Below, piece by piece: positions 40,938 through 64,000 of a stretch of DNA of 64,000 nucleotides. The stretch is from a virus, in IMG/VR virus record IMGVR_UViG_3300036791_000379, positions 32,182-96,181 of that record, one strand, 5' to 3'. Position numbers and translations under genes: made by a program. Positions within the stretch are counted from its first letter, which is position 1; the number at the start of each line of letters is the position of its first letter. The notes under the pieces were generated by a model, which saw only the letters and a program-made list of their open reading frames with translations, ran no database searches and was not told the DNA's origin.

Positions 40938-41587
40938 CAGACGTAGAAGCGCATGTACTTGTAGAGCAGCGCGTTGACGGTCTCGGCCGCCTGCCCCAAT
41001 GGACCGATGCCACTCAGCTTGGCCGCCGCTGCATTGATGTCGAAGAATTGCACGCGCGACTCGCGGTGACTGATCGAGCGGATGCCGCTCGTGAGCTGCC
41101 GCGAGACGAAGATGCGCGCCGCACCAACCATGATCGCCAGCGCCTGCTTCAGGGCTGGCGGCGCTTCCTCCGGCAGATCGTAGCCGCCGGTATAGGTGAT
41201 GCGGATCGGCTCGCTCCACGTCGTGAAGAACTGCAGCTTGCCGCTGCGGTTCTCCAGTTCATAGCCAGCATTGATCACCGTACCATCGGGTGCGGTGATC
41301 GATTCGATGTCGTCATCGGCGACCGGGTAGTGCGTCAGAAACACGCGCCCGTTGCCGGTGTCGAACGGCATAGTGTCGCCGCGCCATGTCTCCTCGACTG
41401 TCTCCTTGGCAAACACCCGATTGCACATGGTGGCGATCACATCGGAATACTGCGTGATCCACATTTCCAGCTGAGCGTCCTCGGTGGGATTCGAGACGGT
41501 GATGCCGAGCATCGTCTTCATCTCGTCGAGCGTCGCCAGATCGATGCTGTCAGCCTCCGTGATCACCTTGACCGTGATGTCAGCCAT
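40937..41587 (-). CDS. Head-tail connector (gp6-like adaptor)
   Basis: 216 aa, ATG at 41587. 'LATLDEMKTMLGI', 'AQLEMWITQYSDVIATMCNRVF', 'YTGGYDLPEEAPPALKQA' mark the gp6/PF05135-type adaptor that binds under the portal. Confidence 0.85.
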   Translation of the reverse strand: MADITVKVITEADSIDLATLDEMKTMLGITVSNPTEDAQLEMWITQYSDVIATMCNRVFAKETVEETWRGDTMPFDTGNGRVFLTHYPVADDDIESITAPDGTVINAGYELENRSGKLQFFTTWSEPIRITYTGGYDLPEEAPPALKQALAIMVGAARIFVSRQLTSGIRSISHRESRVQFFDINAAAAKLSGIGPLGQAAETVNALLYKYMRFYV

Positions 41588-43328
41588 GGCTTTCGCTTTC
41601 CTCGTGATACTGCTCGAAGAATCCGCGACACGGCACCGGCACCTCACTGCCATCCGACATGATCAGCTTCAGTGTATAGGTCTTGCGGTCGATCTCGCCG
41701 CGCGCGATCGACGCGCCGGACACGCCGCGCGGACCGGCTTCGCCGCGCTCGCCCTTCAGCCCCGGCTTGCCCTGCCGTCCCGCCGATGCGATCAGCTGCC
41801 AGCCATCGCCCGGACATGCTCCCGGATCGTCATGCCGCGCCATGAAACTGGAGCCGTTCAGCGCGACAATGTCGAGGTGCTGATAGGTCTCGTCGTCGCG
41901 ATAGGTGCCCTTGATCTTCGGCGACACGGCATCACGACCGGGCAGCGCGAGCGGCTTCCAGTCGGCGTGCGGCGGCTTCTTGGAGGTGTCCTTGCGCGCC
42001 TGCCAAGTGCCGCCGTCGCAGACGACGACGTCGCCGTGATAGCTGATCTCGTCGTCGCTCCACGCGCGGACGATCGGCAGCTCGCCGGGTTCGCCCTTCT
42101 CTCCGCGCTCGCCTTCTTCGCCTTTTTCTCCGGGCTCGCCCGGAGAGCCGTCTGCACCCTTCTCGCCCTGCAGACCCGGCTCTCCGCGCTCGCCCTGCGG
42201 CCCTACCTGCCCCGCCTCGCCCTGCGCGCCGGGCTGGCCCGCTTCACCGGCCTCGCCTTTTTCACCGGGCTCACCTTGAGCGCCGCCAGCGCCCGGCTCG
42301 CCCGGCTCGCCTTGTGCGCCTTTTTCGCCTTCTTTGCCTTCTTCGCCATTGAGTCCTCTCTCTCCTTGTTCGCCCCGCTCACCGCGCTCGCCCTGCAGAC
42401 CGCGTTCGCCGAGCTGTCCCGGCTCACCCTGCGGTCCGGGCTCGCCCGGCTGCCCTATTTCGCCGCGCGCACCGGGCTCACCTTGGAGCCCGCGCTCGCC
42501 GATCTCGCCGCGCTCGCCAGCCGCACCCTGCGGTCCGGACTCACCCGGTTGTCCCATCTCACCGCGCTCGCCTTGGAGACCGCGCTCACCGATCTCGCCA
42601 CGCTCACCCGGCATGCCCTGCACACCTTGCGATCCGGGCTCACCCGGTTCTCCAATCTCACCGCGTGGCCCCGCTTCACCGGATTCGCCACGCTCACCGT
42701 TCGGACCCACTTCGCCGCGCTCGCCCGGCGCGCCATGCTCGCCGCGCAATCCTTGGACACCAGCTTTGCCCTGCGGTCCTTCCTTGCCGTCGAGACCTCG
42801 CCTGCCGGGCTCACCGCGTTCGCCGCGCGACCCGTGCAGACCTTTTTCGCCGCGCGGTCCACGAAGCCCTACAGGACCCACAAGACCGCGCTCGCCGCGA
42901 CCGCCGTCATTGCCCACCGGCCCGATGAAGCCGCGCTCGCCGCGTTCGCCGCGCTCGCCGGCAGGCCCTTGATCGCCGATCGAACCTCCCTCGCCCGGCG
43001 GCCCGACTGGCCCATCCTTCAGCTCGGACAATCGGGCGGTGACGCGCTCGTTGATATCCCGGACACGCTCGGTGAACTCGATCGTCATCCGCGCGGTTTG
43101 ATCGTCGAACGCGGCCTGCATCCGCAGGATCGTGGCCTCCAGATTGGAGACGATCGCAGCCGATCGTGCGACCATCAGCTCGCGCTCGCGCTCCCAGTGC
43201 GCGCGCTCGATGGCCAGCATCTTGCCCAGTGCCAAGTGCAAGATGTCGAGCTGATCGTCAGCTTCGTCAGTTGCGTCCGAAGCGATCGGCGGCTCTGATG
43301 AGCTTTCTGACTTCACGGTCGATAGCAT
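41580..43328 (-). CDS. Collagen-like virion protein with carbohydrate-binding-like ends (582 aa)
   Basis: ATG at 43328, overlapping the portal gene. Residues 1-100 are helical with a coiled coil. About 300 residues of uninterrupted Gly-x-y triplets follow, rich in GER, GPQ and GEP. Two aromatic modules then resemble CBM5/12 chitin-binding repeats ([14 protein letters not shown], '[14 protein letters not shown]'), followed by a short second collagen run and a compact C-terminal domain. Placed between portal and connectors, it is probably a capsid fibre or decoration protein. Confidence 0.8.
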
Positions 43329-44685
43329 CGCGGTTGCCTTTTTCGGGCGGGAGTGGTGCGGGAAGTACAGGCTGTGACGCTGCAGGCGGTGCTGAGGGCG
43401 GCGCGGGCGCGGCCGGGATCGCTCCTGCGGCGCTCAGAGGAACGACCTGTTGCTGCACGCGCGGCTCGTCGCCGAATTTGACGCGATCGAGACCCTCCTG
43501 CAGACGGGCCTCATTGGGCGCATAGATGCCGCCCTGCACGCCGCGCGCCAGTGCCTCGATGCGATCCTTCAGTGCCGATCGCAGCAATGCCGCAGTGTCG
43601 AACTCGACATATTCGTCGGGCTGGCCCTTCAGCATGAACAGCACGCCGAAGGCTTCCTCGACGTGGTTGAGACAGAAACCGAGGCCGGACGCGATCCAGC
43701 TCTGCATCAGCAGCTCGGTGGAATTGTATGTCGAACCGCCGAGGCCGAGAATCTGCAGCGGGATGCGGAAGGCCAGCGCGATGTGCTCATTCGAGAGCTT
43801 GAGAATCTCGGCCGTCGCGGCGTCCTTGCCTCCGACTGCCCACGGCGACACCTTCAGGCCGGCGGTCAGGATCGGCGTGCCGCCCTGATGCAGTGCCTTG
43901 GCCTGATCATTCCAGCGGTCGCGCAGCGCCTGCACCTGATCCTTGTCGAGCACCAGATCGGTGGACAGCACGGCGCTCGGCCGCGCCTCGTTCATGTAGA
44001 ACGCGGCCTGCTGGGCGGCGATGGCGTTGCTGACGCCGATGTCGCCATAGGCCGCGAGGATCGGACTCTCGCCGATAATCGGCACCGGATAACGCTGCCT
44101 TGCCGTGTGCAGTTTGATGTGCAGCACGTCGCGCTGCGGCACCACCACAGAGGACTGGCCAAGGCGCGCGCTGATCACGTCATTACCGTGCAGCTGATAA
44201 AAAATCTCGCCGTTCACCGCGAGGCGCGGAAACGACTGCTCCGATTTCATCAGATGAATCTCGTCGATCTCGTAGCGGTCATTGCGCAGGCACAGCCCGT
44301 AGGCGTTGCCGTCGAGATAGAGCGAGCGCACCGTGTTGAGCAGAAAATCGCTGATCGTCTGGTAGTCGTTCGGATAGCGCAGGATGCGGGCGAGAGCCGA
44401 GTTCATCACCCGGTCTCGTCCGCCTTTCCTGTTGAGCCGCCAATGATCGCCCGGACACATGGCGACGGTTTGTGCATAAGCCGAGACGCAGGCCTCAACC
44501 ATTGCTGACTGGGTGGACAGGCCGACAGGATCGTACCCCATCTGCCACCAGTTCAGAAAATCGCCCACGCCAGTTGGGAGCCAGCCACCCGTGATCGGCA
44601 AATACCATGGACCGGGATGGTACTCGCCCTCGGCCTTGACCTTCGTCGTGATCAGCCGAGAGATACGGGACAGCCAGCTCGCCAC
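43267..44685 (-). CDS. Portal protein (HK97 family)
   Basis: 472 aa, ATG at 44685. 'VEACVSAYAQTVAMCPGDHW', 'GNAYGLCLRNDRYEIDEIHL', 'AFRIPLQILG' and 'TYNSTELLMQSWIASGLGFCLN' (in parts) are portal landmarks. It forms the dodecameric ring at the packaging vertex. The C-terminus is Pro/Ala-rich. Confidence 0.93.
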   Translation of the reverse strand: MASWLSRISRLITTKVKAEGEYHPGPWYLPITGGWLPTGVGDFLNWWQMGYDPVGLSTQSAMVEACVSAYAQTVAMCPGDHWRLNRKGGRDRVMNSALARILRYPNDYQTISDFLLNTVRSLYLDGNAYGLCLRNDRYEIDEIHLMKSEQSFPRLAVNGEIFYQLHGNDVISARLGQSSVVVPQRDVLHIKLHTARQRYPVPIIGESPILAAYGDIGVSNAIAAQQAAFYMNEARPSAVLSTDLVLDKDQVQALRDRWNDQAKALHQGGTPILTAGLKVSPWAVGGKDAATAEILKLSNEHIALAFRIPLQILGLGGSTYNSTELLMQSWIASGLGFCLNHVEEAFGVLFMLKGQPDEYVEFDTAALLRSALKDRIEALARGVQGGIYAPNEARLQEGLDRVKFGDEPRVQQQVVPLSAAGAIPAAPAPPSAPPAASQPVLPAPLPPEKGNRDAIDREVRKLIRAADRFGRN

Positions 44686-44688
44686 GTC

Positions 44689-45000
44689 TCATTCACTCGC
44701 AGGACGAGCCTGCGTCTGCCGCGTCTGGTAGTTCTGCGGCTTTGCGTGCGACTTGTCGGCCTCCATATGCCGATGCTCTTCGTGCGGCTTGTTGAACGGA
44801 TCAGGCCCGCTACCGTCGTCCTCGTGTTCAAGGATGTGGCAGCCAAGCATGGCGAGATCATTCTCTTCCTGCGTCGGCGTCGGCTTGCCCTTGGTGCGTT
44901 CGGCAAACTCGGCGCGGGACTTGTCCGACGCCTTGCGCTCTTCGGCATGGACCTTCTTGGCGTTCTCGGAAGCCACGTCGTCTCCTGTTCTCGTCGTCAT
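44689..45000 (-). CDS. Small acidic head-region protein (103 aa)
   Basis: ATG at 45000 (a longer start at 45060 lacks a clear ribosome site). Charged, helical and low in hydrophobics, with CHILEHEDDGSGPDP and many His/Glu. It lies between capsid and portal. It could be a head-completion or scaffold-like protein; no family is recognised. Confidence 0.6.
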   Translation of the reverse strand: MTTRTGDDVASENAKKVHAEERKASDKSRAEFAERTKGKPTPTQEENDLAMLGCHILEHEDDGSGPDPFNKPHEEHRHMEADKSHAKPQNYQTRQTQARPASE

Positions 45001-45074
45001 GATGAAAAATACTCCTCGTCGTTGGGGGGTCGGTGCTCGTGCGCCGCTTTCACGGCGCATGAGTCAATGCGCGT

Positions 45075-47198
45075 CTACCAAGTGACGTTCTGGGTCCACG
45101 CAACCGTGCCAGCGCGACGCTGGGTCCAGTTGAGCGGCATCACCATGCGCAACGCCAGCGAGTCGGTCTGGAACAGCGAGCGCTGCGGAGCCGCGACCGT
45201 GGACGGCGATGCGACGAGGTCCAGCGGGGTCGTGTCCTCCATGTGCAGCGTCGCCTGATCGCTCATCTCCATTCGCGGAGCCTCACCACCGACCACCACG
45301 AAGTCGGCCGCATCGACGAGGATCAAGGTCTTCGTCGGCACGGTCGCCGAGTCGATGATCGGGATGCCGTTCAGAGTGCCGGCCGCAATCTCGGCCTTGA
45401 ACGGGAAGATGCCCGTGTTCGCTGCCGTGAGCAGCGACGCACGCAGCATGTCGGTCTGGTTGGCGAGCCAAGCCAGATTGCGAACATTGCCATACGTCGC
45501 CGTGCTGATCGAACCGATCAATGCGGTGATGTCGCCGACAAGACCAGCGATGCCGCCGCCAGCCGTTGGAGGCGTAGCTCCAACACCATTGAGCAGGCCT
45601 GCCGGCCTGATCACAGTCGCAGCGTTGGCATCGATCAGAACCGAGTCGATGGCCACGCTGGTGTCGTCTTGGATCGCCTGACGGATCAGTCCCTCGATCG
45701 CAGGCACGGAGTGGTCGCCCATCTCCCGAGTCCAAGTCGAGATGACTGCCATCTTCTTCGGCGTGAGCGTCTGCGAGGTGAACGCGCCCTGCCGGACGGG
45801 GATCGGCATGCCTTCGCCGACGAACGAACCCGCCAGAGACGGCGTGCGCGAGCGAGTCGGGATGACGATGCGGCCGGAGGTGCCGAAGCTCAGTGTCAGC
45901 CCCTTCGGCCCGAGGCGCGTCAGAATCGCCTTCGGCATCAGGAGTGGCATGAGATCGGCATAGGTCGTCTGCGCAAGTTCGGCGGCCCAGCCGGTGACCG
46001 TGGTCATGGCTGGTGCGGAGGCCGCGCGCGTGACGATCTCGACAATGGCCTTGGTGCCCTCGTCGTCGCCGTAAATCCGCAGCCGGGTCTCCTCGACCGA
46101 TTTGCCCGTGGCCTTGGCGATATACGTCACCGTGGCACCACGGACGAGGTAGTCGAGCAGATCGAGGTCCTTCTTGGTGCGGTTCAGGATCACGGAAGGC
46201 GACGCGATGCGCTCGCGCTCGGTGATCACAGTCGTGGAGATCGAGCGGCTGCGGCCTGAGCCGTTGCCGTTGCCGTTGTCGAGGTTCTTCGCCAGCAGCT
46301 TCTCGGAGCCGATCAGTTCTTCATGCAGCTTTTCGAGCTGCGTGAGATCGGCGCGCAATTTGCCGTTCGTTTCGATGTCAGCATCGCTGACGTTGGAATT
46401 GTCCATCTTTTCGAGATGGGCCTCAAGTTCGTCCCGCTTGGCGACGATCTGCGTCTCCAAATCGGTAATGCGCTGAGCTAGGCCAGACATGGCGCTGCCC
46501 TTTCTAGTGCGAGATGCAGAGGCGTGCTCGCCAGTGAACCCGCGACGCTTGGTGCCCGTGTTCTTTTTGCCTTGCTCGGCAAACACGAGACCAATTGTTG
46601 CGGGGGAAATGTTCAGAGACTTCGCGACGGACAGCGCGTTGGGATTGGCCGGCACGGCAACGAGCGACGTCTCCACCAGCTCACTCTTGGTGTAGACGCT
46701 GCCGCCGAATCCAAAATCGTCGTCTTCCTTGCGCGACTTCCGCTTGATCGGCTTGAAGCCGACCGAGACTGCTTTCAGGATGCCGGCGTCGATCAGCCGG
46801 CGAATTTCGTCGATGCGATCACTGGTGCCCTCGGGCGCGAGTTCGAGGTGGCCGCGCAGGGCCTTGTTCTCGACGCGGATGTTCTTCCACTTGCCGATCG
46901 GAAAATCCGACCGATGGTTGAACAGCGCGATCGGGTTTCGCTTGAAGTTGGCGAGTTCCCAGCCGTCCGACATGATGATGTCGTCCATGCGGTCCGGGGT
47001 TTCGTCGGACAGCACAAACTCCATGCCGTTGACGTTCTCGGCGTGGGTCTTGTGCTTGAGGCCGTTGACCGACTTGTTGTCCCACATCAACTGGCACTGA
47101 TCCTCGTCGCCCATCTCGTCGACGCAGTCCGACATGAACTCGTCTTCATCGTCGTAGTCATCGGGATCGCACGCCTTCATCGGCAACTTCTTCAGCAT
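45075..47198 (-). CDS. Prohead protease fused to HK97-fold major capsid protein (707 aa)
   Basis: ATG at 47198 with GAGGAGG upstream. Residues about 55-190 are a prohead protease: LFNHRSDFPIG (H95) and LKAVSVGFKP (S145) hold the usual catalytic His and Ser. Residues about 237-305 form a coiled-coil scaffold-like segment. Residues about 375-707 are the HK97-fold capsid domain, with MTTVTGWAAELA, EGMPIPVRQ, NANAATVI-like segments and VAWTQNVTW at the end. An internal ATG at 46490, behind AAAGGGCAG, could also yield capsid protein without protease. Protease-capsid fusions are known; maturation would separate the parts. Confidence 0.92.
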   Translation of the reverse strand: MLKKLPMKACDPDDYDDEDEFMSDCVDEMGDEDQCQLMWDNKSVNGLKHKTHAENVNGMEFVLSDETPDRMDDIIMSDGWELANFKRNPIALFNHRSDFPIGKWKNIRVENKALRGHLELAPEGTSDRIDEIRRLIDAGILKAVSVGFKPIKRKSRKEDDDFGFGGSVYTKSELVETSLVAVPANPNALSVAKSLNISPATIGLVFAEQGKKNTGTKRRGFTGEHASASRTRKGSAMSGLAQRITDLETQIVAKRDELEAHLEKMDNSNVSDADIETNGKLRADLTQLEKLHEELIGSEKLLAKNLDNGNGNGSGRSRSISTTVITERERIASPSVILNRTKKDLDLLDYLVRGATVTYIAKATGKSVEETRLRIYGDDEGTKAIVEIVTRAASAPAMTTVTGWAAELAQTTYADLMPLLMPKAILTRLGPKGLTLSFGTSGRIVIPTRSRTPSLAGSFVGEGMPIPVRQGAFTSQTLTPKKMAVISTWTREMGDHSVPAIEGLIRQAIQDDTSVAIDSVLIDANAATVIRPAGLLNGVGATPPTAGGGIAGLVGDITALIGSISTATYGNVRNLAWLANQTDMLRASLLTAANTGIFPFKAEIAAGTLNGIPIIDSATVPTKTLILVDAADFVVVGGEAPRMEMSDQATLHMEDTTPLDLVASPSTVAAPQRSLFQTDSLALRMVMPLNWTQRRAGTVAWTQNVTW

Positions 47199-47209
47199 GG
47201 GATTCCTCC

Positions 47210-47830
47210 TCACGTTTGCAGGAAGGCCAGCCACGAGCCCTCGACGCAGTCGATGGCCCAGCCCTCGTGCTCAAGGCGGGTTAGTGCCCGCGTCACCTCG
47301 ACGTCCGGATTTGAAAAGTCGTGCCAGCAGATGATGCCGCCCGGCCTCACCAGCTCGCGCGCGAGCCGGCTTTCGTGCAGCACCGCCGCTTCGCTGTGGT
47401 CACCGTCGATGAACACCGCATCGCACCGCTCAAGATCAGCGGCGACGATGGATCGCGACGGCGCGAGCAGCAGATGGAATCGCTCGTCGCTCGCGGCATG
47501 TGCGCCAGCATTGGCCGGCACCTCGCCTTGCTGACAGCGCAGCGTGGTCACATGCTCGAACGGGACATCGATGCCGATATAGGTTTCGATCGTCGGCACG
47601 TTCTCCAGCACGCGCGCCGCCGTGATGCCGGCATTGCAGCCGAACTCGATCATCACCTCCGGCGCGACGCTCTTGATCAGCGCGACGAGGATCGCCGTCT
47701 CGTGCGGCGTCATGTATTTGCTGAACGGTCCCCGGATCGGCGCGACGCCGAGTTCAGCGCTTGCGAATTTGCGCAAGCGCGCCGGCCCAGTCGCCGGCAG
47801 TCGGCTGCCGGCAAATATGCAAATTCGCAT
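47210..47830 (-). CDS. SAM-dependent methyltransferase-like protein (up to 206 aa)
   Basis: The frame opens at ATG 47830, inside the upstream gene; ATG at 47713 is a shorter start. 'VMIEFGCNAGITAARVL' is the SAM-binding GxG motif, 'YIGIDVP' the acidic strand, and 'CDAVFIDGDHSEAAVLHES' with 'VRPGGIICWHDF' match class I methyltransferases of the Methyltransf_24 type, which often act on sugars. Adjacent to a glycosyltransferase-like gene, it may modify a glycan. Confidence 0.82.
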   Translation of the reverse strand: MRICIFAGSRLPATGPARLRKFASAELGVAPIRGPFSKYMTPHETAILVALIKSVAPEVMIEFGCNAGITAARVLENVPTIETYIGIDVPFEHVTTLRCQQGEVPANAGAHAASDERFHLLLAPSRSIVAADLERCDAVFIDGDHSEAAVLHESRLARELVRPGGIICWHDFSNPDVEVTRALTRLEHEGWAIDCVEGSWLAFLQT

Positions 47831-49004
47831 ACCAAGGCGCGACCCACCGCCAGCTCGCCCAGTGCGACAGCAGGCCGACGACGTTCCGGTGACCGATCGC
47901 CCCGGCCAGATGCAGCGCTGCGGTGTCGACGCTGACGATCATGTCCATCTGCAGCATCAGCGCGGCGCAATCCGCGAAGTCGGCGAACTCATGGACGTGG
48001 ACGCCGATCGCTCGGGCCTCATCCGCGCCCTGAACCTGCACGCTGTGCAGTTGAGAGAAGCCAAACGGCTTGACCAGCTGCTGCAGCGGAATCTCGCGCG
48101 GATAGTCGCCATCGCTCGGCTTGCCGATCGACCACGCGATGCCGATGCGTTGCTGGTCAGGATGTGACTTTTCCGGGAGCCGACCGCGCCAGCGCTCGAC
48201 GAGCGTGGGTTCGACCTCGATGTACGGACTGCCGTCGACATTCTCTGGCGTGACGTGCAGGAAGTGCAGCAGATGCAGGATCGGGCAGAAATAATCCGGA
48301 GGTCGCTCGATGAGCGGTGGCGATGATCTGATGTTGGGCGGAGGAAACCTGCCGGGTGGAGCAAACTTGTCGGCGAGACGCTGCAGCTCGACCGGTACAT
48401 CAAGACGGACGTTCACGCCCATCTCCCAGAGCGGCTGGACATAGCGCAGCATCTGGATCGTGTCGCCGAAACCATGGGCGTGCAGCACAAGCAGTTTCTT
48501 GTCGCTCAAATCCTCGCCGCGCCACGGCTGCAGGCCGGCGTCGAGCGCGGCGCGAACCTGCGGCCGGATGAACGGCGCTTCCTGTTCGCATTGCCAGTAT
48601 TCGTCGAGGCCCTCGTCCCAGCGGCCGAGCGCCAGCAGCACCATGGCGCGGTTGAATTTGGCGCGCAGCGTCGGCGCAGCGCGCAGCGTCGCGTCAGCCT
48701 CGATCAGCGCCTCGGCAACGTGGTTGTTCTTGTAGAGCGCGACCGCAGCGTTGAAGTGGGAGAGATAGTCGTTGATGTCGACGGCAATGTCGTTGCGGAC
48801 AGCGCGCCGGCCGATCGGCGTGCCCCTGAACGCCACGGTGATCTCGTCCGGCACCTCGATGGCGTGGCCGTTGGTCCCCCGGACCTCCAGCACCTCGCCC
48901 TCCTTCGTGATCCCGCGCCAGCCGTAATCGGTTAGCTCGTGCGAGATGATCGGATGAAGTTCTGGCAATGCCTCTTTGACGAAGCTGTTGAATATCTCGC
49001 GCAT
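47754..49004 (-). CDS. TPR-containing glycosyltransferase family 9-like protein (416 aa)
   Basis: ATG at 49004. Residues about 80-145 form TPR-like helical repeats (ALYKNNHVAEALIEADATL, 'FNRAMVLLALGRWDEGLDEY'). The rest has GFGDTIQMLRYVQPL, the start of a GT-B N-terminal domain, and 'VSVDTAALHLAGAIGH...GLLSHWASWRW', the nucleotide-sugar site signature of GT9-like proteins. It sits between two capsid genes. Virion glycosylation or a surface-glycan role is inferred. Confidence 0.82.
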   Translation of the reverse strand: MREIFNSFVKEALPELHPIISHELTDYGWRGITKEGEVLEVRGTNGHAIEVPDEITVAFRGTPIGRRAVRNDIAVDINDYLSHFNAAVALYKNNHVAEALIEADATLRAAPTLRAKFNRAMVLLALGRWDEGLDEYWQCEQEAPFIRPQVRAALDAGLQPWRGEDLSDKKLLVLHAHGFGDTIQMLRYVQPLWEMGVNVRLDVPVELQRLADKFAPPGRFPPPNIRSSPPLIERPPDYFCPILHLLHFLHVTPENVDGSPYIEVEPTLVERWRGRLPEKSHPDQQRIGIAWSIGKPSDGDYPREIPLQQLVKPFGFSQLHSVQVQGADEARAIGVHVHEFADFADCAALMLQMDMIVSVDTAALHLAGAIGHRNVVGLLSHWASWRWVAPWYANLHICRQPTAGDWAGALAQIRKR

Positions 49005-49005
49005 G

Positions 49006-50076
49006 TCACTTCCATACGGGCGTCAGCCACGCGACCGCGCGCGAGTCCCGCAGCGCCCACGACACCGGCCAGCGCACCTTCACCGCGAGGCTGTCGGACT
49101 GGAACATCTCCTTTTCCGGTCCAATCGTGCCGGCAACGCCGGGTGCGGTGTCCATCACGAGCGTGGCCGCGTTCACCGTCTCCACATTCGGATCGGCGCT
49201 CAGCGCCGCGACGAGGCCGGCCGCCGCAATCACGATGATGTCGTTGCCAACCGCAGACGACGCGAGTGGAATGATCGTTGCGTCGGTGCCCTCGGCCTTG
49301 ATGCTGCCGAACCGCGCGCTGGCGCTGGCAACGCGACCGATCGATGAGACGATGAAGAATGGCCCTTTGCCGCCAACCGTCCCGACAGCGTTGAGCAGAG
49401 TGGCCATGTCCTCAAAGAAAGCGCCGAACGGATCGGCGCTCGCACTTGCTCCCAGTGCGGCAATGCCATTGCGGATGCCGGCGGGTGCCGCTGCCGTCGC
49501 AGCGTTGGCGCTGAAGAACACTGCGTCGAGCGCGAGTCCGGATGAACGGATAAGCGCGTCGCTGATCAGTGCCTCGGCATTGCTGCTCTCGACCATCTCG
49601 CGCGTCAGCGCTGCGATGGTTGCGAGCTTGCGTGGGGTCAACAACGCCGGACCCAGATTGAGCTGCCGCACGGGGATCGGGTCACCCTCGGCGACGAAGC
49701 CGCTGTTCGCCGCGCTCGCAACGAAACCCGGCGCGCTGACGATGCCTCCGCCATCCCAGTCGAGCAGCAGTCCTCTCGCCATGACATCGGCTGCAGTCGA
49801 CGCCGCACCCAGCGCCGCGACAGTGTCGACGACCGTGCGTCGCACCAGTTCGGCGGCCCAGCCCACGACGGACGTCATCGCCGGGTTGGACGCCGCGCGC
49901 GTCAGCAGCTGTTGCAGCGCGCGATCGTTCGGCCACATCTCCGCCGCCACATCGGTGACAGGACAGCGTCGCAGGCTTGCGATCGTTCTTGCGGTGATCG
50001 CTCGCGTGCAAAGATTGCCGCCCACAGCCTGTTCGCGCGGCTCGCGGCGAAACGCACTTTCACTCTCGTGCTTCAT
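49006..50076 (-). CDS. Second HK97-fold capsid-like protein (356 aa)
   Basis: ATG at 50076. Residue for residue it follows the capsid domain of the 45075-47198 protein: AASNPAMTSVVGWAAELV versus AASAPAMTTVTGWAAELA, EGDPIPVRQ versus EGMPIPVRQ, LTPRKLATIAALTREM versus LTPKKMAVISTWTREM, and matching C-termini with FQSDSLAVK and AVAW. It lacks protease and scaffold parts. It may be a minor capsid subunit or a diverging duplicate. Confidence 0.85.
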   Translation of the reverse strand: MKHESESAFRREPREQAVGGNLCTRAITARTIASLRRCPVTDVAAEMWPNDRALQQLLTRAASNPAMTSVVGWAAELVRRTVVDTVAALGAASTAADVMARGLLLDWDGGGIVSAPGFVASAANSGFVAEGDPIPVRQLNLGPALLTPRKLATIAALTREMVESSNAEALISDALIRSSGLALDAVFFSANAATAAAPAGIRNGIAALGASASADPFGAFFEDMATLLNAVGTVGGKGPFFIVSSIGRVASASARFGSIKAEGTDATIIPLASSAVGNDIIVIAAAGLVAALSADPNVETVNAATLVMDTAPGVAGTIGPEKEMFQSDSLAVKVRWPVSWALRDSRAVAWLTPVWK

Positions 50077-50091
50077 CGGCCCATTCCCTTC

Positions 50092-51678
50092 TCACTTCCC
50101 GACATAGGCGTGGAAACGATCCATGGATTGCTTGTCTTTGAGATCGAGGACGCCGCTCCAGCTCTTGCCGAGCAGCAGCTGCTTGCCCTGCGCGGAGTCG
50201 GCGATGGCCCACAGCGCCTTCGGATCGGAGCTGCGCGCGAGCTTCATCAGCGCATCGTTGGCGGACGGCTCGGGCAGCTCCATTTCCTGCTGCGGCGGCT
50301 CCTCGTCGTCCTCGATCGGATATTCCGGCAGCTCGCTGTTGCGATCGGCCCACTCGTACTTGTCCCGGTCGGACATGCTCGACCAGTATTCGTGCTGATA
50401 GTCGGCGACCTGATCGCTGAAGTCCGGCGGGTCCGCATCCTGCGCGCGATCTTCGGCCTCGGTGTTGAAGGCCTCGGTCAGCGCCTTGTCGATCTCCTCG
50501 CGCGCGGAGTCGCTCAGCATCTCGTTCGGCTTGATCGGCTCGATACCCGGCAGCGTCTGCTGCGCCGGGTCGTAGCCTTCGGGCTGCATCTGATCGAGCC
50601 GCTGATCGCTGAAGGCGATGCTGGCGTCGTTGCGGCCCTCGTAGTCGCGGTCGTAATCGACGTCGATTGCCGAGAGAATTTGCTCATCGGTGAACGGGAC
50701 GGCGGGATCGCCCTCCTCGGCGCGCTGCTCGCGCCAGCTCTTCAGCGCAGCTTCCGCCCATGTGCCGCCACCGCGCTGATTGAAGTCGTCAGCCAGATTG
50801 CTCTTGGCGTCGTCGAGCGCCGCGCCGCTGTCGCGCCAGTTCTGCTGCTCGCTGGAAACGAACTCGTCGTAGGTGGCCCGCGTCCACGCGGTTTCGATCG
50901 CCGATTGATCGTACTCGCCGATCATGTCCCAGCTTTCCGGCGTATAGCCGGAGCCGGTCGCGGTGTGGCTCGCGCGGTTGCGGTCGCCGCTCAGCTTGTC
51001 GCGCAGATCGCTCGACAGGTCACGCCACGATGACGCGGTCGGCACGTAACCGTACTTCGCCCACGCATAACCGCCGACGTCGATGTTGGCGCTGACCTCG
51101 ACCTTGTCGAGGCCGAGCTTCTGGTACATCGCGACATTAGCGGCGAGCAGCTTCTTGCCGACGTTGCCGCCCTGCGAACCCTTGTTGAGCTGGAAGTAAG
51201 CCGAGTAGGCCTTGTTGTCCTTGAGATTGATCTCGCGCTGGTAGGTGCCGATCTCCTTGCCGTCTTCCTCCAGTCTGCCGTCGATCGAAATCTTGTCGCT
51301 GTTCGGGCTGTAGCCGACGCGCATCGTGCCATCGAGCCCGCCGAGGAAGTGATCGCGAAACTCCTCCGGAGCTTCGTTGATCTTCTCGTTCCAGCGTTCG
51401 AGGAATTTTTCCGACCGCGCCTTGTCGACGCTGGTGTCGCTATCGAGCCTGACCTTGCCCTTGTTGAAGTCGGTGCTTTTGAACTTGCCTTTGCCCTTGT
51501 CGCCGCCGGCCGCCGGCTTCTCCGAGCTGCCGGCCCCGTCTCCGCCGCCGCCGCTGGTGAACTCGCCGCCGCCCGATGATCCGGCCGGCTCGCGCGGGTG
51601 CTGGCTCTCGTCCCATTCGCGCAATCGAGGCCGGGTGCGGGTGAGCGTTTCCATGCGGTTCCCCCGGCCCTCCAGCAA
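50092..51678 (-). CDS. Effector-like virion protein with GNAT-like domain (528 aa)
   Basis: The frame starts at 51678 (MLEGRGN) or ATG 51654 (METLTRTR). Near residue 24 lies EWDESQHPREPAGSSGGGEF, resembling the D-E-x-x-x-P-R-x-x-x-G-x-[FW] peptide found on other phage head-region effectors. Residues about 130-215 look GNAT-like: 'SQGGNVGKKLLAANVAMYQKLGLDKVEVSANID' (in parts) and YAWAKYGYVPT. The rest is acidic and helical. Probably packaged with the head; enzymatic activity is an inference. Confidence 0.7.
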   Translation of the reverse strand: MLEGRGNRMETLTRTRPRLREWDESQHPREPAGSSGGGEFTSGGGGDGAGSSEKPAAGGDKGKGKFKSTDFNKGKVRLDSDTSVDKARSEKFLERWNEKINEAPEEFRDHFLGGLDGTMRVGYSPNSDKISIDGRLEEDGKEIGTYQREINLKDNKAYSAYFQLNKGSQGGNVGKKLLAANVAMYQKLGLDKVEVSANIDVGGYAWAKYGYVPTASSWRDLSSDLRDKLSGDRNRASHTATGSGYTPESWDMIGEYDQSAIETAWTRATYDEFVSSEQQNWRDSGAALDDAKSNLADDFNQRGGGTWAEAALKSWREQRAEEGDPAVPFTDEQILSAIDVDYDRDYEGRNDASIAFSDQRLDQMQPEGYDPAQQTLPGIEPIKPNEMLSDSAREEIDKALTEAFNTEAEDRAQDADPPDFSDQVADYQHEYWSSMSDRDKYEWADRNSELPEYPIEDDEEPPQQEMELPEPSANDALMKLARSSDPKALWAIADSAQGKQLLLGKSWSGVLDLKDKQSMDRFHAYVGK

Positions 51679-61646: not shown

Positions 61647-63230
61647 TCATCCGATCAGCGCCTCGATGTCGATCGGCTTGGTGTTGACGCGGTCGCGCGA
61701 TCGGAAGCCCAGCATCATGGCGAGCGCCACCGCGCCATCGATGCGGAAGCGCGCCTTGTCCTTGTCGAGCTTGCGGTTGCCGGCCGGATCAGTCGTCGCC
61801 ACCGCGTTCGCCATGTTCCAGTTCAGCACCGGGCTGTTCGGATGGATCAGCTGGCGCTCGACCACGGCCAGCTCCAGCGCGTCGATCGCCGGACCCATGT
61901 CGCGGTAGCCCTGACCCCACGGCACGAGGCGAAGACCATCGCCCGGCTTGGTGCCTTCGACGTCCTCGTAGGCCGATAGCCCGATGCGATCGAACTCGCG
62001 CAGCAGGTCTTTGATGCGCCAGCGATCGTAGGCGAGGCCCTTGACCTTGTAGATCGTGGTCAGCTCGGCGACCTTGCGCGCAATCGCCTCGGGGTCGATC
62101 GAGCGGCCCTGTGTGACGTTGAGGTGCTCGGACTTGAGCCATTGCTCGTAGCGATGCGAGCCGGCACCGAAGTCGCGCAGCGAATGGACGTCGAGCTGGT
62201 CGGCCGGTTTCCAGAACAGCGGCAGCACGCGCACCGGCTCGATCGCCGAGCCGACCACGAGCGCGGTCAGATCGACCACACTCGACAGGTCGAGCGCCAT
62301 GTAGACGTCCTCGCCGGGCACCAACGCGGAACGATCGGGGCCGGCGCAGGCCATCCACTCGGCGCGTGAGATCAGCGTCGAGACCGGCGACACGCGCTGG
62401 TTCAGGAACAGGTTGCGGACCTTCGGCTCCTCGGCCGGCAGGCGCTTGGCCTTGCGCACCGCCGCGACGAGGTCCTCGCGGTTGCGGAATTTGCCGAGAC
62501 CGGGGTTCGCCTTCTTCCACTGCTTCTCGTCGTCGAGTTCGCAATCCTCGTCGGCGGCGTACAGGTGGCAGACGATCGAGGGATCAATCCCGGACAGGCC
62601 GTCATCGATCAGCTTCGACAGCACATGCTCGGGATCGTTCGACTGGGTCGAGATCACGATGAACAGCGGCTCGTTGCGCGCGCCGAACGCGGTATCGAGC
62701 ACGTCATAGAGATCGCGGTTGCGGGCCTGCGCCAGCTCGTCATAGATCGCGACGCTCGGCAGCAGCCCGTGCTTGGTGGTGACCTCGCTTGAGACCGCGC
62801 GATAGACGCTGCCGGTGCGCCGCGCCACCATGGTCTTGGTCGACGGCACGATCTCGATCTGCTCGCGCAGCTCGGGCTCCAGCTCGACGATCTGGCGCGC
62901 GAACTTGAACACGATCGCCGCCTGCTCGCGATCGTTGGCGGCGGAATAAATCTCGCCGTTCACGATCGCCTCGGGACCGACCAGATGTGCCAGCACGATG
63001 CAGGCGATCAGTGCGGTCTTGCCGTTCTTGCGCGCGATCGACAGGATCGCCCGGCGCACCACGCGGTTGAGGCCGTAGTGTGGCTCATAGATCGCGCGAA
63101 TGAACGCCTTCTGGAAAGCGTCGAGCACGAACAGCTTGCCCTGCCCGATGCCGCTCGGCACCGTCAGGCGCTCGATGAACTCGATCACCCTCGCGGCGCG
63201 GTCCCGCTTGCGCGTGGGCGCGACGATCAC
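61647..63230 (-). CDS. Terminase large subunit
   Basis: GTG at 63230 overlaps the small-subunit stop by four bases; a longer upstream frame is a shadow. 527 aa. 'ILSIARKNGKTAL' (about residues 62-74) is the ATPase Walker A, VAIYDEL (about 160-166) the Walker B, and IVISTQ (about 191-196) the coupling motif. Later 'VYMALDLSSVVDLTAL' begins the RNase H-like nuclease with its first Asp. It drives DNA packaging, HK97/P27-group type. Confidence 0.95.
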   Translation of the reverse strand: MIVAPTRKRDRAARVIEFIERLTVPSGIGQGKLFVLDAFQKAFIRAIYEPHYGLNRVVRRAILSIARKNGKTALIACIVLAHLVGPEAIVNGEIYSAANDREQAAIVFKFARQIVELEPELREQIEIVPSTKTMVARRTGSVYRAVSSEVTTKHGLLPSVAIYDELAQARNRDLYDVLDTAFGARNEPLFIVISTQSNDPEHVLSKLIDDGLSGIDPSIVCHLYAADEDCELDDEKQWKKANPGLGKFRNREDLVAAVRKAKRLPAEEPKVRNLFLNQRVSPVSTLISRAEWMACAGPDRSALVPGEDVYMALDLSSVVDLTALVVGSAIEPVRVLPLFWKPADQLDVHSLRDFGAGSHRYEQWLKSEHLNVTQGRSIDPEAIARKVAELTTIYKVKGLAYDRWRIKDLLREFDRIGLSAYEDVEGTKPGDGLRLVPWGQGYRDMGPAIDALELAVVERQLIHPNSPVLNWNMANAVATTDPAGNRKLDKDKARFRIDGAVALAMMLGFRSRDRVNTKPIDIEALIG

Positions 63231-63733
63231 GACTGGTTGGCGAGCAGCCCGGAGAATTTGCGCTCGGCTTCCTCGCCCGACGCGGTGCCATTGACGCGGG
63301 TGCGGCTCGACGGCGTGAAACCGAACTCGACGCAGAACCGCATCAGGTTCAGCGAAGCATTGGCCGCGATCTTCACCAGCGGGTTGGTGATGTGGCCGCC
63401 GTTCGCGCCCTCGACCAGCAGGCCGCGATGCTTCGGGTTTTCCTGCGCCATCTCGTACAGGGCGTCCTCGGCCTCGCACCAGCGCGCATAGGCGAGGCAG
63501 TACAGCGACAGCGGCCGGTAGTCGGCGATCGTTAGGATGCCCAGCCGGTGCAGCTCCGGCGCGATCCGGTTCCACTCCTCTCGGGCCACCTCCGACCGGC
63601 GGATGTGGTGAGGTGCCGGCGGGCACTCCGCCTCGACCAGTGGCTGGATTTCGCCCTTCGGCAGCGGCCGGTGCCCGGTATTGCCGCGCAACAGCTTCAG
63701 CTGCGTCGGAACTGCTTTTGCGCCGCGCATCAT
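63227..63733 (-). CDS. Terminase small subunit (P27 family)
   Basis: 168 aa, ATG at 63733 with AGGAG upstream. 'RGAKAVPTQLKLLRGNTGHRPLP', 'PPAPHHI', 'EWNRIAPELHRLGILTIADYRPLSLYCLAYARWCEAE' (in parts) are P27-family signatures. It recognises the packaging site, probably the repeats just upstream. Confidence 0.93.
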   Translation of the reverse strand: MMRGAKAVPTQLKLLRGNTGHRPLPKGEIQPLVEAECPPAPHHIRRSEVAREEWNRIAPELHRLGILTIADYRPLSLYCLAYARWCEAEDALYEMAQENPKHRGLLVEGANGGHITNPLVKIAANASLNLMRFCVEFGFTPSSRTRVNGTASGEEAERKFSGLLANQS

Positions 63734-64000
63734 GATGGAACTCCTATGGAACTCGGCGGAACTCTCTCCGGCGGTGTCTGGATGCCGCAAAAGAGAATGT
63801 TTTTCTCCTTTCGCGATTGGTGCCTTATTACCGAACTGGGCGAGCTGGAAAAACCTGCGAACGTGGAACTCACTTAGCAGGGGCCGTTTCGGACCTATTT
63901 TGGAACCGAAGCAAAAAGATCAATGATTTCATCTATTTGCGAGGAGAATAATCTTCTACACCACCAAAAACCCGAAATTCTGCGGGCGCAATAATTGGAG
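63734..64000. other. Region upstream of terS with GGAACTC repeats
   Basis: No credible gene in about 270 bp. GGAACTC occurs at 63737-63743, 63748-63754 and 63758-63764 (spacings 11 and 10 bp) and again at 63865-63871. The rest is more AT-rich, with 'GATCAATGATTTCATCTATT' like sequence near 63920. It probably holds the late promoter and possibly the packaging site. Confidence 0.6.

Follow-up and report, generated by a model that had tools for sequence, protein, structure and literature searches.

A second, predicted HK97-fold capsid gene coupled to a glycosyltransferase gene in a phage of the Bradyrhizobium group

Phage T4 has two HK97-fold paralogs, gp23 for the hexamers and gp24 for the vertices, which are cleaved by a separate protease. 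A capsid homolog can also be encoded by a satellite. Ccm of SaPIbov5 has 355 residues, is 24% identical to the capsid protein of its helper phi12, includes an N-terminal delta domain of 87 residues that is removed on assembly, and forms the pentamers of the small SaPIbov5 shells, and no shell is formed from Ccm alone (PMC8569155). In Caulobacter, the TPR and GT-B protein FlmG glycosylates flagellins via its TPR part (PMC7591256), and in Corndog, a cluster O mycobacteriophage, genes for an O-methyltransferase and a glycosyltransferase lie between the portal and protease genes, for which the authors proposed a modification of the capsid (PMC4351075). Here, we describe a locus that holds genes for two homologous capsid proteins, called MCP1 and MCP2, together with a glycosyltransferase (GT) gene and a methyltransferase (MT) gene between them. 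It was analyzed in a window of 64,000 nucleotides, which comprises positions 32182-96181 of the 96,181-base IMG/VR virus contig IMGVR_UViG_3300036791_000379. The relatives of the window phage are prophages of Bradyrhizobium, and it is a phage of the Bradyrhizobium group, from soil.

We hold with about even confidence that MCP2 is a minority subunit of the shell, perhaps at the vertices, and that the linked enzyme glycosylates a virion protein. The ingredients are known and their combination is new; the capsid gene that is common to helper and satellite is the part most worth following. In the open-access literature searched, which does not include subscription journals, no description of a gene pair of this kind or of Bradyrhizobium satellites was found.

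The two capsid proteins and the linked enzymes

The four genes had been recognized, with correct coordinates, in an earlier sequence-only reading, and they form a single run on the minus strand in the order MCP2, GT, MT and MCP1. Just 1 nt separates the TGA of MCP2 from the ATG of GT, the start codon of MT lies inside the GT gene, and the stop codon of MT is followed by AGGAGG and then by the ATG at 47198. Judged by their sequences, these junctions appear to be those of one translation unit. The ATG preceded by AGGAGG is probably the start of MCP1, which would then have 707 residues, and not the GTG at 47234.

MCP1 is a fusion of a prohead protease, a coiled coil and a capsid domain, with a Pfam Phage_capsid match at residues 422-660. 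This architecture is also found in Rhizobium phage RHph_X2_26 and Pseudomonas phage PAJU2 (26-28% identity), but the annotated stretches of these two phages have neither a second capsid gene nor GT or MT genes among the head genes. MCP2 (residues 21-354) was aligned by BLASTP with residues 361-717 of the fusion, with 31% identity over 362 columns (E 4e-31), which bears out the earlier claim that the 356-residue protein is homologous to the capsid domain of the protease-capsid fusion. MCP2 also matched the major head protein family phrog_617 (PHROGs, E 1.9e-14), and a Pfam profile search gave no match. The AlphaFold2 model of MCP2 was of moderate confidence (predicted local distance difference test, pLDDT, 74; predicted template modeling score, pTM, 0.74). 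A Foldseek comparison gave matches to encapsulins and HK97 capsids, with 8gta at the top (E 4.9e-10), and further matches were the shells of HK97, R4C, P4 and SaPIbov5. Structure prediction, which had been proposed as a check, thus yielded an HK97 capsid fold, and MCP2 is an HK97-fold capsid protein according to this model.

The GT protein has an N-terminal beta domain, a TPR region at about residues 77-139 and a GT-B domain from about residue 165. Its Pfam matches to GT9 and TPR were under the cut-offs (19.7 versus 22 bits for GT9). However, its model (pLDDT 91) was closest to the GT9 enzymes 3tov and WaaC (E 4.9e-6 to 1.7e-4), with OGT and SPY next, and the motifs HxxGxGD (H175, G178, G180, D181), D300-x-P302-R303 and D360-T361-x-A363-x-H365 were invariant in 29 sequences. 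The predicted GT-B fold and the GT9-type motifs are in agreement with the sequence-only description of the gene product as a TPR plus GT9-like protein. The same is true for the Methyltransf_24 assignment of MT, for which the Pfam match was above the cut-off (51 versus 26.3 bits, E 2.9e-13). In the relatives, MT is optional and variable in position.

The closest working model for the GT protein would be FlmG, because both are soluble proteins that combine an N-terminal TPR part with a C-terminal GT-B part, and both come from an alphaproteobacterial setting. The TPR part of FlmG binds the protein to be modified, whereas the GT protein of the window is likened to it by architecture; it differs in its GT9-like domain and its additional N-terminal beta domain. 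Modification enzymes within the head gene run are shared with Corndog, in which a second capsid gene has not been reported and the enzymes and their order are different. In podovirus MW202512, a distant TPR-GT relative is encoded a few genes behind the major capsid gene and is followed by an FkbM methyltransferase. These two parallels show that the linkage of such enzymes to capsid genes arose more than once.

Distribution and descent of the MCP2 lineage

Relatives of MCP2 were numerous in IMG/VR (293), none were found in INPHARED, and a search of plasmids gave four weak matches (28-32%). A 62% relative is present in a prophage of Bradyrhizobium stylosanthis. The Bradyrhizobium genus set comprised 266 genomes, one of which (G199) harbors MCP2 and GT in each of three prophages. 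In G013 and B. stylosanthis, MCP2 is located immediately ahead of MCP1 without GT or MT, and in G040 a divergent copy of the MCP2 family has this position. Three prophages, L048, L213 and L214, have MCP2 immediately ahead of MCP1 and no GT, so that the tie of MCP2 to the head genes is independent of GT. Seven related prophages have MCP1 only, without MCP2 and GT; all of them have the same portal and six have the same terminase.

Among the IMG/VR loci of MCP2, 87 extended for 800 bp or more downstream; all of these had GT, at a distance of at most 30 bp from MCP2 in 69. When sampling started from MCP1, GT was found in 43 of the 44 loci for which 2.5 kb or more of upstream DNA was available, the sole exception being of the B. 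stylosanthis type, and MCP2 was found in 41, plus in the cut-off or divergent cases that were checked. Among the relatives of this group there was no case of GT without a gene of the MCP2 family; locus L183 had been a candidate, which was rejected because a divergent MCP2-family gene sits at the contig start, just ahead. The presence pattern is nested: GT occurs only with an MCP2-family gene, and phage MCP2 only with MCP1. The sampled loci are mutually related, and their co-occurrence is a pattern and not a tally of independent events. In locus L003 (2121-3176, 3180-5123), two different MCP2-family genes in tandem are followed by a long fibre-like gene and then by GT and MT, and the head region of this one phage thus has three HK97 capsid genes.

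The search of the genus set also revealed about 27 standalone capsid-like genes, encoding about 340-440 residues, without an adjoining portal gene. They are surrounded by genes for tyrosine integrases and for primases or replication initiators. When 121 neighboring proteins of at least 230 residues were scanned, there were 23 integrase matches and many primase or replication matches, and neither a portal nor a large terminase was among the 25 commonest families of these proteins. The standalone loci are, by their gene content, best read as phage satellites of a PICI-like kind. Like Ccm, these relatives of MCP2 are thus carried by integrase-bearing elements that lack a portal and a large terminase, whereas MCP2 itself sits in a phage. 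The open frame extended upstream of the HK97 domain by a median of 16 residues, in MCP2 and the satellite genes alike.

In the satellite-like elements L204-L209 and L215-L235, a single-domain capsid gene is followed by conserved genes of the clusters C3, C4 and C9; small terminases were considered for these genes and rejected, as only C4 had a weak similarity (hhalign E 2.4e-4, prob 44). Satellite L209 (genome G243) has a gene for a 239-residue small terminase (L209:11188-11907, phrog_83). Most of the group's Bradyrhizobium prophages have a small terminase with 58-66% identity to this protein, and the one of the window has 35%. A satellite that relies on such a helper for its packaging would require a protein of this type. 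Flanking repeats were found only for L208 (27 nt, 11.2 kb apart) and are possibly a common intergenic repeat. A homolog of the baseplate hub (L216:5312-6406, phrog_177) is encoded at a distance of about 2.7 kb to a standalone capsid gene, so that L216 is either a satellite carrying a tail gene or has a prophage remnant nearby. Behind the C3 and C4 genes of L231 lie six tandem repeats with a spacing of 56-60 bp (L231:11990-12338). Every unit contains an inner inverted repeat that differs in sequence between the units, although its pairing seems to be kept. A reverse transcriptase gene adjoins the standalone capsid gene of L207 (L207:6549-8249) and may serve the satellite as a defence gene. The standalone capsid gene at G100:C2:4660292-4661367 is broken into two frames and is a decaying satellite copy.

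A maximum-likelihood tree was calculated with 66 capsid domains. MCP1 formed one clade, with the Mesorhizobium and Enterovirga prophage fusions as its sister group. Phage MCP2 formed a separate clade among the satellite capsid genes (98/81 with L108; 100/98 when L109 and the additional phage copies L003b and L180b are included), and the G040 copy grouped with other satellite genes (100/97). A common clade of MCP1 and MCP2 was rejected by the approximately unbiased (AU) test (p 2.5e-4), as was a single clade of all satellite genes, and the median identity of MCP1 was 42% to the Mesorhizobium and Enterovirga outgroup fusions and 33% to MCP2. A recent duplication of MCP1 inside this phage is thereby ruled out. 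The sequence-only reading had taken MCP2 for a duplicated shell gene; the two homologous shell genes and the sugar and methyl enzymes are real, whereas a duplication within the phage has to be given up.

According to the tree, the MCP2 lineage appears to be common to the phages and the satellites of Bradyrhizobium. As the G040 copy is placed with a different set of satellite genes, an exchange of the gene between phages and satellites would have occurred at least twice. The higher diversity of the satellite genes suits a transfer from satellite to phage, a direction that it suggests and does not prove. It is tentatively proposed that phages of the Bradyrhizobium group repeatedly recruited capsid-redirecting genes of their satellites and that the main lineage made one of them a regular, enzymatically glycosylated shell subunit, helper and satellite thus exchanging capsid genes.

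Role of MCP2 and substrate of the enzymes

MCP2 has neither a protease nor a scaffold (delta) domain and is therefore probably unable to build a shell alone. It would co-assemble with MCP1, which would supply the protease and the scaffold, and it would fill a minority position, likeliest the pentamers, like Ccm in SaPIbov5 capsids. A minority position beside MCP1 seems most likely because MCP2 and its satellite relatives match Ccm in size and divergence. Ccm shares with these proteins the HK97 fold and a similar size. It is carried by an integrated satellite, and its gene is of the same kind as those of the Bradyrhizobium satellites and, judging from the tree, as MCP2. In contrast to Ccm, the MCP2 gene resides in the phage itself, is coupled to a glycosyltransferase gene and belongs to an unrelated host group. 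With T4, the window phage has in common two HK97-fold paralogs in one genome, one of them suited to vertices; it differs in that only MCP1 carries the protease and scaffold and in that the split of MCP1 and MCP2 predates the phage group. We infer the incorporation of MCP2 into the virion and its pentamer position from these analogies.

The GT protein would be a cytoplasmic enzyme whose TPR part holds a protein substrate, as in FlmG, while a sugar is added, and MT, where present, would methylate this sugar. The substrate would probably be MCP2 or the MCP1/MCP2 shell, and the coupling of the MCP2 and GT genes points to MCP2. The activity of GT, its substrate and the methylated sugar are thus proposed by analogy, and a decoration of the capsid or the fibre is plausible.

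Several observations weigh against this interpretation. The delta domain of Ccm has no counterpart in MCP2. The seven close relatives assemble their heads in the absence of MCP2, which suggests that in some phages MCP1 suffices for all capsomers. The distances of the GT protein track MCP1 (partial r 0.62) more than MCP2 (0.13), so that a mirror-tree test of the MCP2-GT pairing did not favor MCP2, and this result speaks against MCP2 as the sole substrate. In addition, a fibre-like gene lies between MCP2 and GT in L003 and L183, and genes for a 128-residue and a proline-rich protein do so in L074, so that other surface proteins may be substrates.

From these last loci, in which fibre-like or proline-rich genes are immediately ahead of GT, it could be argued that GT acts on a collagen-like or fibre-like decoration protein instead of the shell, which would be compatible with MCP2 as a shell subunit. 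We regard this as rather unlikely, because MCP2 alone adjoins GT in most loci, and the collagen-like gene, which was rejected as the reason for GT, occurs in GT-plus and GT-minus relatives alike. MCP2 might also be a captured satellite capsid gene that is used against satellites, by competing with their capsid protein, or that switches between shell sizes. The position of the MCP2 clade and of the G040 copy among satellite genes, the existence of phages without MCP2 and the phage-type small terminase of L209 would fit this explanation. However, it depends on the unproved direction of transfer, and the retention of MCP2 in nearly all sampled IMG/VR relatives, coupled to GT, fits a constant role in the virion at least equally well, and thus it is judged to be unlikely.

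GT9 enzymes are mostly lipopolysaccharide heptosyltransferases, and together with the nearest folds, 3tov and WaaC, this could indicate that GT and MT modify a sugar of the host surface for superinfection exclusion, their place among the head genes being incidental. This is improbable in our view, since GT belongs to the head operon and follows MCP2 at a distance of 1 nt, was found in this group only together with a gene of the MCP2 family, and has a TPR-GT architecture like the protein O-glycosyltransferases FlmG, OGT and SPY. Finally, MCP2 changes faster than MCP1 (median capsid-domain identities of 54% versus 71%), as a decaying or functionless duplicate would, but such a fate is almost certainly excluded by its purifying selection (median dN/dS, the ratio of nonsynonymous to synonymous substitution rates, 0.24 versus 0.17 for MCP1), its intact frames in about 100 relatives and 35 invariant columns.

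Head gene surroundings and implications

The head genes are all encoded on the minus strand. The terminase genes (63790-61647) are followed by the GNAT-like gene, MCP2, GT, MT and MCP1, and then, on the same strand, by the genes for a 123-residue protein, the portal, a collagen-like protein, a connector and a contractile-tail set (sheath, tape measure, baseplate), so that the phage is a myovirus. In relatives, the GNAT-like gene shifts its place and is found ahead of MCP2 or between GT and MCP1. The collagen-like protein of the window has about 104 Gly-X-Y triplets, and the repeat length in relatives ranges from 10 to 120 triplets.

Table 1. Coordinates of the head genes and domains in the window
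Feature	Position	Strand	Remarks
Small terminase	63227..63790	-	Homolog in satellite L209
Large terminase	61647..63200	-	phrog_9, residues 140-648 of longest frame; upper bound approximate, true start probably below 63226
528-residue protein with GNAT-like stretch	50092..51678	-	Upstream neighbor of MCP2
MCP2, second capsid protein, predicted HK97 fold	49006..50076	-	356 residues; without protease or delta domain
TPR + GT-B (GT9-like) glycosyltransferase (GT), predicted	47754..49004	-	416 residues
Methyltransf_24-type S-adenosylmethionine methyltransferase (MT)	47210..47830	-	206 residues; overlaps end of GT gene
MCP1, prohead protease-coiled coil-capsid fusion	45075..47198	-	707 residues from ATG 47198; 719 residues from GTG 47234
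Peptidase_S78 protease domain of MCP1	46635..46943	-	Residues 98-200 of 719-residue reading; Pfam
Capsid domain of MCP1 aligning with MCP2	45078..46154	-	Residues 361-719
Conserved 123-residue protein	44689..45060	-	Between MCP1 and portal
Portal protein	43267..44685	-	Phage_portal, E 7.9e-63
Collagen-like protein	41580..43328	-	Between portal and connector

If the interpretation of MCP2 as a glycosylated minority subunit is true, a phage shell would be built from two paralogs, one of which has a dedicated glycosyltransferase, and a lineage of capsid genes would be common to phages and the satellites that parasitize them, beyond the staphylococcal system of Ccm. A natural series exists, all in Bradyrhizobium genomes, that comprises phages with MCP1 only, with MCP1 and MCP2, and with MCP1, MCP2 and GT, as well as satellites with an MCP2-like gene, and it opens the origin of vertex subunits and the purpose of capsid glycosylation to direct tests.

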